From Synechococcus sp. PCC 7335 (lineage in GTDB: Bacteria; Cyanobacteriota; Cyanobacteriia; Phormidesmidales; Phormidesmidaceae), in NCBI RefSeq assembly GCF_000155595.1, contig NZ_DS989904.1, positions 4,457,987 through 4,521,986 on the forward strand: 64,000 nucleotides of DNA, given 5' to 3'. Made by a program: the position numbers and the translations under genes. The notes below the pieces were generated by a model. That model saw only the letters and a program-made list of their open reading frames with translations. It was not told the DNA's origin and did not search any database. Within the stretch, counting starts at the first letter, position 1. Each line of letters begins with the position of its first letter. Below, piece after piece: positions 58,514-61,075 of the stretch.

Positions 58514-58966
58514 ATGGCAAAGATAGATAGTCCTAAATGGTTCGAGTATCCGATTAGAGTTCAGCCTCATCACACAGACTATGGCGGCGTAGTTTGGCAT
58601 GGAGCATACATCACCTGGCTAGAATCAGCTCGTGTAGAGTGCCTACGCGCAGCAGATGTTCCCTTTGACCAGCTAGTAAGTTCAGGCTTTGACCTACCAG
58701 TAGTTGCACTAGAAGTTCGCTACCGACAACCGCTGACACTTGGAATGACCGCTATCGTCAGGACTCGACTAGCACCCGTAAAGGGGCTGCGATTGAACTG
58801 GCTATACGAGATTGTCACTGTCGACGCGAATGAGACTATTCAGGTATGTCTTACTGCTCAGGTGACCTTGGTTGCTGTGAGCGTACGCGATCGCAAAGTC
58901 ATTCGCCAGCTACCAGCAGCCGTCAAAAAGATCATCGGCCAAATTTCTCAATATTTTAATGAGTAA
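58514..58966 (+). CDS. Hotdog-fold acyl-CoA thioesterase (YbgC-like)
   Basis: A 150-residue 4HBT-family thioesterase. The catalytic Asp lies in HHTDYGGVVWHGAYITWLESARVE, with LPVVALEVRYRQPLTLG following. It could act on acyl-CoA or on DHNA-CoA in phylloquinone synthesis, but the sequence does not decide. ATG with a weak ribosome site. Confidence 0.82.
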   Translation: MAKIDSPKWFEYPIRVQPHHTDYGGVVWHGAYITWLESARVECLRAADVPFDQLVSSGFDLPVVALEVRYRQPLTLGMTAIVRTRLAPVKGLRLNWLYEIVTVDANETIQVCLTAQVTLVAVSVRDRKVIRQLPAAVKKIIGQISQYFNE

Positions 58967-59195
58967 GCGGAAGAAAGCGCAGGTTGTCAACTATAGACGC
59001 AGGTTATCAACCATATAAGAGGGGAAGTAGCGCAATACTCAGCAATCAGCTAAACGAAGTAGTTGCGCAGCGCATTTACTTCAAAGCGCTACATTCTCGC
59101 TGTGACGATAGCTACAAAACTCATCTCACTACTGTCGAAAACAGCAAAAACTTCATCACTATCATAAATTTACAACTCTTAGTATCCTAGAGTCT

Positions 59196-59291
59196 TTCTC
59201 CACAAGCTTTCCACAGGTTTTCCACAAGTCGATCGGAGGTTTTCCACAGGTGAGAATGAAACGAGGGGATCTCACTCCCAATTGTGGAATA
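59196..59291. promoter_or_regulatory. Cluster of five DnaA-box-like sequences
   Basis: Two perfect TTTTCCACA boxes (59218-59226 and 59240-59248), two one-mismatch boxes in the same orientation (TTCTCCACA 59196-59204, CTTTCCACA 59207-59215) and one inverted one-mismatch box (TATTCCACA, 59283-59291). TTTTCCACA is the typical cyanobacterial DnaA box. Weaker TCCACA sites follow near 59430 and 59474. The flanking 59330-59400 is AT-rich. The cluster may be oriC or another DnaA-binding locus; dnaN and dnaA are not in the window. The rest of 58967-59564 has no gene I can support. Confidence 0.6.
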
Positions 59292-59564
59292 CGCCAACTA
59301 GGATATTTCTGTCTGCTATCACGAAGGCAGTGTAAACTTGTGTAACAAAAACCGCCCTGAAAGCCACTTGCCTGAATTCTTTAAAAATCTATTAAGTCTC
59401 TATCAGTAGTTCTATCTGTTGCTATTTCTAGATGGATGCTCCACAATTGATGAACACATTCGTTGATCGCTTCGTTCCACACAGCATCTTGTAAAACAGG
59501 AGCTAAGGCATAACAAAGCGTGACATTTTTGAGTCTAAATAAATCAGTGGTAAGGAGTTCGTCA

Positions 59565-59798
59565 GTGCAACAAACAGTCAGCTTATCAGTGGAAATTCCA
59601 GAAGATTTACACGCTTCAATTCAACAGTATTTAGATGTGCGTTCTAGTTGGAGTCAGGACCGTTTGTTCTGCGCAGCGCTTTCGCTATTCCTTATGCAAA
59701 ATGGTGTGACTCATCGCCAGGTCAGTCGCATCTACCTAGACAGCCTCTTTGGTCAACAGCCAGGAAGCAACAAAGAAATGATTCGCTCAAATGCCTAG
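59565..59798 (+). CDS. DUF2811-family small protein
   Basis: A 77-residue protein with the DUF2811 pattern (LSVEIPEDLHASIQQYLD, SWSQDRLFCAALSLFLMQNG, SRIYLDSLFG). The N-terminal part suggests a ribbon-helix-helix-like or small DNA-binding fold, but that is not established. The frame is open to 59520, yet GTG 59565 has AAGGAG (59552-59557) 7 bases upstream and is clearly the start. Confidence 0.82.
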   Translation: MQQTVSLSVEIPEDLHASIQQYLDVRSSWSQDRLFCAALSLFLMQNGVTHRQVSRIYLDSLFGQQPGSNKEMIRSNA

Positions 59799-59898
59799 TA
59801 TATCTAGCATATTATCTTGCACGTAGAGCTTCAGCTGAGCATCGCTGTCAATGGTTGAGCAGGTGATCGCTAGATAGCCAATTTCTATGAGTTTCTGA

Positions 59899-60013
59899 TA
59901 TAGCAAAGTAGGGGTGCATTCTTACTCTGCATGTAGACTTTGTGGCTAGAGTTGTCTGTTATCCTGTAACAATGTTAGCCGGTGAGTATGTCCTAACTTC
60001 TACGAAAGCTATG
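59899..60013 (+). repeat. Dispersed repeat, family B, copy 2
   Basis: Starts TATAGCAAAGTA and ends with TTAGCCGGTGAGTATGTCCTA...TACGAAAGCTATGG, as in 41905-42031. The first 32 bases also resemble the hairpin at 30656-30687 (TAGCAAAGTA..GCATTCTTACT..TGC). The remainder of 59799-60271 holds no gene I can support. Confidence 0.45.
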
Positions 60014-60271
60014 GATAGGTTAATCTATCTGTTCTAATTCATTCTTCTTATTTAATTACAATATTACTCTTCGCTAGATGAATAGAGAACAAGCCGTTAG
60101 CATACTATTGCTAAAGTATTAGCCTGAAAACATATCAACCGTCAGAACACACCAGTTCATAAGCGAATCTGTTTTCTCTTAGGGAGTCATCGGCTGTCGC
60201 TGACTTAGCTATCAATAGAATTAGTCTGTATTTGTTGATCTTAGGAAAGTGACTTACCAAGCTACAATTAC

Positions 60272-61075
60272 CTATTTCCCAATTGCTTTGACTAGGCCAA
60301 TTCCACCAAAGTAAAGAAAAAGCACTGCACCTCCTAGCAAACTTTGCGTTATCGGATCTGTCGAAGGAGTAAGGACTGCCCCTAGAATAGCTGCGCCTAG
60401 CAGTACATAGCGCCAGCCAGATAGCATCTGCTTGGAGTCAACAATTCCCAGCAGGCCCAGCAGTAGCTGAATCACTGGGATTTGGAATGCTAACCCCGTA
60501 CTAAATAGCAGCAACAGCACAAACTCAAAGTATCGATCGATTGACCACATCTGCTCAACCACATCCGCACCGTAATTGATGAAGAAATTTAGAGCAGCCG
60601 GAACTAGGGCAATATAGGCAAATCCCAGCCCCGCAAAAAATAAGATGCTAGAACCTAGCACTACTGGACCAATCAATCGACGCTCTCGCCGAGTTAGTCC
60701 CGGCAACACAAACTGGATAATTTGGTAGAGGATAAACGGACTCGCAATCAAAATGCCACTGTAGCCTGCCACCTTAATCGAGACAAAGAAATACTCACCT
60801 GGCGATAGCTGCAGAAACTTTGCGCCTTGAGCCGGAATCTCTAGCAGTTCAACGATCTGCCGAACGCCAGCAAAGCAGCCGACAACACCCACTAGGATGG
60901 CAACCAGTGAATAGAGAATCCGCGTTCTAAGCTCATCAAGATGATCAAATAAAGACATCTCAACGTCATTCGGAATTTCGTCTAGAAAGGCTTCGTCCAT
61001 AGATTTGTTCACTGGCTCGTCTAGCACTGAGAGGTTGGCAGAAGGTGCTGTCTCAAGGTCAGAAGGAGGCGTCAT
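60272..61075 (-). CDS. tatC: Sec-independent protein translocase TatC
   Basis: TatC recognises twin-arginine signal peptides and forms the Tat translocon in plasma and thylakoid membranes. Six hydrophobic helices follow the conserved [15 protein letters not shown]-terminal motif; FLPxxP-like [39 protein letters not shown] and [11 protein letters not shown] are diagnostic. The N-terminus has a 35-residue polar extension. tatA/B are not adjacent. Confidence 0.93.

Follow-up and report, generated by a model that had tools for sequence, protein, structure and literature searches.

The cluster of DnaA boxes described here is best explained as a conserved cis-regulatory array that is bound by DnaA and belongs to the gene for DUF2811, a cyanobacterial protein of about 60–80 amino acids that would itself act in the DnaA pathway. 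We assign this reading as a whole a probability of roughly 0.78. Across the sampled class, an array of recurrent geometry accompanies DUF2811, the gene tends to be lost together with dnaA, and the boxes decay in genomes without dnaA. An earlier note on this DNA had offered an unconventional oriC, a DnaA sink, or a regulatory locus that binds DnaA and might serve the DUF2811 gene. The comparison of genomes strongly supports the last of these proposals, since the array tracks the gene and not a chromosomal position.

The window, by which we mean the whole stretch of 64,000 nucleotides that was analysed (C1:4457987-4521986), comes from Synechococcus sp. PCC 7335. The genome of this organism comprises 5.97 Mb in 11 contigs, and the nearest named relative that we found is Cf. 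Phormidesmis sp. LEGE 11477. A one-mismatch scan recovered all five boxes that the earlier note had placed in the window (Table 1). Four of them have the same orientation and fit into 53 bp, two of these are perfect, and the inverted fifth box starts 35 bp past the end of box 4. The density had been called far above chance, and this judgement holds: the cluster has five one-mismatch boxes within 96 bp, and simulating the 64-kb window 40 times with a first-order Markov model gave a maximum of one (34 runs) or two (6 runs). Across the whole window, one-mismatch sites are only mildly frequent (21 observed, 14.2 expected), and TTWTNCACA is matched 4 times with 4.05 expected. Because these window-wide counts are near expectation, clustering and not word frequency is the unusual feature. 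Perfect boxes occur 50 times in the entire genome, compared to 57 occurrences of the backward control word. Since the backward word is no rarer, the enrichment lies in clusters and not in single boxes. The AT-rich neighbour of the cluster is also real, with 70% AT at 59140-59195 compared to 51.5% window-wide.

Table 1. Features of the DUF2811 control region and gene (positions counted from the first nucleotide of the window).
Feature	Position	Strand	Remark
Upstream element TTTACAACTCTTAGTAT	59169-59185	+	conserved in aligned loci, 5' of the boxes
DnaA box 1, TTCTCCACA	59196-59204	+	one-mismatch scan of the window
DnaA box 2, CTTTCCACA	59207-59215	+	11 bp step from box 1
DnaA box 3, perfect TTTTCCACA	59218-59226	+	11 bp step from box 2
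DnaA box 4, perfect TTTTCCACA	59240-59248	+	22 bp step from box 3
Inverted DnaA box, TATTCCACA	59283-59291	-	start 43 bp from start of box 4
Conserved TGTGTAACAAAAA element (TGTAACAAAAA form in the window and its relatives)	59339-59351	+	between array and promoter
Promoter-like TTGCTA-N17-CACAAT	59419-59447	+	179 bp after start of box 4; weaker -35
AAGGAG, likely ribosome-binding site	59552-59557	+	sequence
DUF2811 gene, GTG start, 77 aa	59565-59798	+	Pfam PF10929, E 2.9e-23

The DUF2811 gene of the window matches its Pfam family with 82.4 bits (cut-off 26.6). The family is present in 282 of 289 genomes of the class, and among 14 control genomes the only match came from the cyanobacterium. We counted boxes between -800 and -150 from the DUF2811 domain in 104 loci, one per genome, which represent 36 families by label (37 for all 106 loci gathered). 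L015, with 400 bp of upstream sequence, and L141, with 618 bp and three boxes, were left out; L137 repeats L085, and 19 named loci were counted apart. This sample leans to strong family members, because the best-scoring matches were taken first and families still missing were added afterwards. At least one box was found in 99 of the 104 loci, at least two in 96, and at least three in 75. Of the 309 boxes in total, 295 point forward with the gene and 213 are perfect; the backward motif occurs three times. The flank from -1500 to -850 contains six boxes in 102 loci. The downstream interval from +250 to +900 contains 17 boxes in 67 loci, with at least two in six loci, five of one genus. L027, L028, L029, L037, and L039, all from one genus, carry an extra box pair at about +496 to +532 from the domain, and L031, from another genus, carries a downstream pair at about +754.

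Forward boxes mostly follow each other in steps of 11 bp (33 cases), 21 bp (74), or 22 bp (44); in the window, the four forward starts are separated by 11, 11, and 22 bp. Of 102 loci, 57 have a longest upstream frame that shares the direction of the gene and 44 have one that opposes it; in one locus no such frame was found. Since upstream frames run both ways, the array follows DUF2811 and not an upstream partner. No more than one further DUF2811 gene was found in the same genome. A cluster lies upstream of it too (C1:1807568-1807618); its boxes are at -329, -308, and -287, and TTGACA follows at -102. As at DnaA-regulated promoters, the boxes lie in the control region of one gene and are conserved with that gene. 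Judged from this conservation, the array is almost certainly part of the DUF2811 control region.

In 48 relatives, 34 of 108 perfect-pair clusters, counted among the matches listed, lie within 1.5 kb of DUF2811, all in its orientation. Five of these 34 are downstream of the gene (G002, G004, G006, G007, and G011). The count was derived from 149 box pairs among the matches listed, with one pair of G000 omitted. Box clusters have other neighbours besides DUF2811. The 30 relatives with a listed dnaA place contain 75 such clusters: 26 at DUF2811, 13 at dnaA, and 36 elsewhere, some of which may be origins beside a separate dnaN.

When 100 loci from 35 families are aligned with the last forward box as zero, the alignment shows weaker TTTTCCCCA-like boxes (-65 and -54), an upstream element (near -90), and a degenerate inverted half resembling TGGGGAT (about +44). 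By a strict rule, 13 of the 106 loci gathered have an inverted box 43–46 bp on. The class-wide consensus of the upstream element is approximately TTTGCAATTCTTAT(T/C)NTT. In 48 of 100 loci, the word AATTCTTAT lies, with at most one mismatch, within the 80 bp that precede the first box; 3.9 such loci are expected from shuffles. The copy in the window is not significant alone, because it has three mismatches to the 14-base consensus. Of 59 genomes, 6 combine upstream element and box, each at a single place. Five of these places are upstream of a listed DUF2811 gene; the sixth is in G083, a genome without a listed DUF2811 place. The TGTAACAAAAA element between array and promoter resembles, we presume, half of an RpaB site. 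An Rfam scan of 58900-60300 for known RNAs returned one match, far below the gathering score.

In 85 of 100 loci, the stretch from array to gene contains a promoter-like sequence, TTGACA-N16..19-CACAAT with at most one mismatch; the same holds for 0 of 100 shuffles. The promoter-like sequence in the window (Table 1) is the counterpart of this conserved TTGACA-N17/19-CACAAT. The fixed spacing expected of a DnaA-regulated promoter was found mostly, not always: 54 of the 85 matches lie 181–184 bp past the last box, and the others 115 to 198 bp past it. Several of the deviating distances look shifted by roughly one helical turn or more, as though a different in-register box had been counted last. 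Between promoter and DUF2811 domain the distance ranges from 47 to 431 bp. The six loci of the small-genome family f2 have no promoter match (3–4 mismatches).

Five of the 104 loci (L031, L040, L085, L103, and L143) have no box by the rule, and three more have exactly one. L031 and L040 lie in genomes that contain additional copies of DUF2811, L103 has only TTTTCCCCA-like variants further upstream, and L143 comes from a dnaA-less genome. In L085 (G074, dnaA present), the array consists of three tandem copies of TTTTCCCCA in 11-bp steps together with the usual upstream element, which perhaps reflects a shifted DnaA specificity. Among the 19 named loci, L052 and L060 are boxless and four have one box.

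Cyanobacteria that have lost DnaA provide a natural experiment. Of 289 genomes, six have no DnaA domain IV and seven have no DUF2811; five genomes belong to both groups. Expressed as frequencies, DUF2811 is missing from 5 of 6 genomes without this domain and from 2 of 283 with it (Fisher p 8e-9, uncorrected for kinship). G086 and G185 contain dnaA and gave no DUF2811 match. In a larger draw, 21 of 388 genomes have no DnaA domain IV. Twenty of the 21 were listed, and the 12 that are 99–100% complete were tested for DUF2811, leaving aside eight less complete genomes and the unlisted one. Nine of the 12 have no DUF2811, G368 carries a pseudogene with two stops, and the gene is intact in G184 and G388. 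By label, these 12 genomes fall into about six lineages, and DUF2811 is wholly lost in four. The co-loss counts are counts of genomes and not of independent events, and several of the dnaA-less genomes may be reduced symbionts.

The dnaA-less genomes with remains of the locus indicate what happens to the boxes. G184 has kept DUF2811, the upstream element, and the promoter match, and has zero boxes; its congener G292, which contains dnaA, has three perfect boxes in 22-bp steps. In the f28 pair without dnaA, G388 has one forward box, and G368 has no forward box and one inverted box. G306, a congener of both, has three CCACA boxes and one CCCCA variant. On these three genomes from two lineages (G184; G368 and G388), the boxes depend on the presence of DnaA. 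Because the arrays decay in all three, we tie the boxes to DnaA and not to another reader, and DnaA is very likely the protein that binds the array. Perfect box pairs are absent from 5 of 6 dnaA-less genomes and present in 12 of 12 dnaA-bearing genomes, the latter chosen by hand, some because arrays had already been seen there. In dnaA-less G281, box pairs at C2:18150-18200 are part of exact 21-bp tandem repeats that contain TTTTCCACA. In G176 (L145/L151), the DUF2811 frame is broken, and upstream boxes and dnaA are present; the broken frame may be a sequencing error or early decay.

The protein itself is strongly conserved, with 22 invariant columns among 18 relatives. An AlphaFold monomer model (mean pLDDT 79) contains helices at residues 13–25, 31–45, 51–62, and 70–76 and no strand; three helices make up its well-predicted part. 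Inspected by eye, the start of the sequence reads as strand-helix-helix, which we take to be ribbon-helix-helix-like. Foldseek, VIA-align, and a PDB profile search gave no clear structural match (best Foldseek E 2.8); the best structural Z was 4.1, to UPF0291 ynzC, with an rmsd of 5.1 over 48. No weak RHH match was found in Pfam for five DUF2811 members, and an RHH_1 search of 8 genomes returned three matches, too few for a comparison profile. Two members had no match in NCBIfam, and no relative was confirmed in the viral contigs searched.

Could the cluster nevertheless mark an unconventional or second replication origin? PMC4674748 gives TTTTCCACA as the cyanobacterial DnaA box and dnaN as the usual neighbour of oriC. 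The window site has a cluster of such boxes and an AT-rich flank beside it, and it is adjacent to neither dnaN nor dnaA. The earlier note had seen neither gene nearby, and indeed the window contains no match to the Bac_DnaA profile; dnaN, identified only as the gene beside dnaA, is 3.4 Mb off. The dnaA match is at C1:1120897, the window site at C1 4.517 Mb. Perfect boxes are grouped beside dnaA (six at C1:1122092-1122223), at 827792-827974, at 1807568-1807618, and at the window site. The gene past the dnaA-side boxes is dnaN (PF00712, E 2.6e-23), the interval between the two genes contains eight boxes by the one-mismatch rule, and its six perfect boxes follow steps of 21 and 11 bp. The comparison with the dnaN locus, proposed as a check, thus argues against an origin in the window. 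The GC-skew check came out mixed. Cumulative skew along C1, which is weak and was computed from sampled stretches, goes up over the first half and down later, with its minimum at the contig end and not at dnaA-dnaN; no farther than roughly 10 kb from the site, the skew moves from about -0.1 to near zero. The minimum toward the contig end and this kink would suit an origin, but the skew keeps its sign at the site, and at dnaA-dnaN it turns locally from negative to positive. The array also recurs upstream of the other DUF2811 gene. A dozen assemblies whose numbering begins at dnaA have the listed DUF2811 gene in scattered places, as judged by eye. This genome very probably has its replication origin elsewhere, and an unconventional or additional origin at the site seems to us most improbable. 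On a larger scale, C1 has strongly negative GC skew from about 4.34 to 4.51 Mb, which ends close to the site and is followed by a near-zero plateau.

Two other explanations accept the array and dispute its link to DnaA-controlled expression of DUF2811. The array could titrate or recharge DnaA, as do datA, DARS, and the DnaA-box clusters of Bacillus, which bind DnaA outside oriC, and DUF2811 would then be a mere neighbour. Such a role is compatible with the density, phasing, and mixed strength of the boxes, with the presence of several arrays in one genome, and with decay in the absence of dnaA. A sink would not require the array to keep to DUF2811 across families despite both orientations of the upstream frame, nor 295 of 309 boxes to share the orientation of the gene at a mostly fixed distance to the promoter, nor both DUF2811 copies of one genome to bear arrays, nor DUF2811 itself to go with dnaA. 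The known non-oriC clusters resemble the array in kind, but the latter is locked to the promoter of one gene, and a pure sink leaves this geometry unexplained. We therefore regard titration as unlikely. Alternatively, the boxes may be read by another protein that recognizes TTTTCCACA-like sequences, for example, DUF2811 itself. The small size of DUF2811, its presumed ribbon-helix-helix-like start, and the further conserved elements in the region would agree with this idea. Yet the fold matched no known structure or family in the searches above, and arrays are lost or reduced without DnaA even where DUF2811 stays (G184 and G388). Since the word is also the cyanobacterial DnaA box of the literature (PMC4674748), we consider a different reader very unlikely.

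The favoured reading, DnaA control of DUF2811, can be worded as a mechanism. Two to five boxes of differing strength, placed one or two helical turns from each other, would be occupied cooperatively by DnaA. The boxes point in the direction of DUF2811, and some lineages add an inverted box about 44 bp further on. From there, DnaA would tune transcription from a sigma70-type promoter about 182 bp past the last box. An effect of DnaA on DUF2811 transcription is likely. The sign of this effect is about even, with a slight lean to activation because the array is too far upstream to occlude the matched promoter. DUF2811 could serve as a reporter of replication status or as a feedback regulator of DnaA, with an expression level that tracks free or active DnaA. 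This proposal is motivated by the co-loss and by the inferred DnaA control, both comparative, and we lean only slightly toward a function of DUF2811 in the DnaA pathway. A more speculative extension, to which we give somewhat less than even odds, pictures DUF2811 as a cyanobacterial co-regulator of DnaA under direct DnaA control that would feed back on DnaA or link initiation with light and growth. The two genes would form an ancient loop that is dismantled once a lineage gives up DnaA, boxes first and then the gene; where DnaA is dispensable for replication, this loop is perhaps its main remaining task.

Precedents for such control exist. In 2001, Burkholder et al. are said to have placed sda, a gene for a small checkpoint protein of Bacillus subtilis, under DnaA control. 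Common to sda and DUF2811 are a small protein, a cluster of DnaA boxes in the control region, and a possible readout of the initiation state; in contrast to sda, DUF2811 is cyanobacterial and unlinked to sporulation kinases, and the likeness is one of description. In Escherichia coli, nrdAB and dnaA have DnaA-regulated promoters. Further examples, mioC and fliC, are given in PMC4674748. These promoters also use boxes outside oriC for transcription. In the case of DUF2811, the array is about 182 bp upstream at a mostly fixed distance, occurs class-wide, and serves a gene that tends to vanish with dnaA. Cyanobacterial oriC shares the box word and similar steps with the array. The latter lies away from dnaA and dnaN, points mainly in one direction, and is followed by a promoter and the DUF2811 gene.

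Neither DUF2811 nor PF10929 was mentioned in the literature searched, and publications on cyanobacterial DnaA and the box word contained nothing tying the boxes to DUF2811; most subscription journals and supplements lay outside the scope of both searches. According to PMC7198777, DnaA of three cyanobacteria binds oriC boxes in ChIP-qPCR, dnaA has been lost in several lineages, and the function of DnaA in species that replicate independently of DnaA and oriC is unclear. PMC6478999 attributes the regulation of DnaA activity in Synechococcus elongatus to as-yet-unknown factors. The array and the co-loss point to an unstudied partner or readout of DnaA. An array on one small gene throughout the sampled class, together with co-loss with the initiator, makes DUF2811 a named candidate that bears on both questions raised in these sources: what regulates DnaA in S. 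elongatus (PMC6478999), and what role DnaA has in cyanobacteria that keep dnaA and replicate without DnaA (PMC7198777). The case also illustrates that box clusters alone can mislead the prediction of cyanobacterial origins. Another cluster in the same genome, G000:C1:827792-827974 (L005-L007), lies between a recJ-like and a DUF4349 gene and is a possible third DnaA target.
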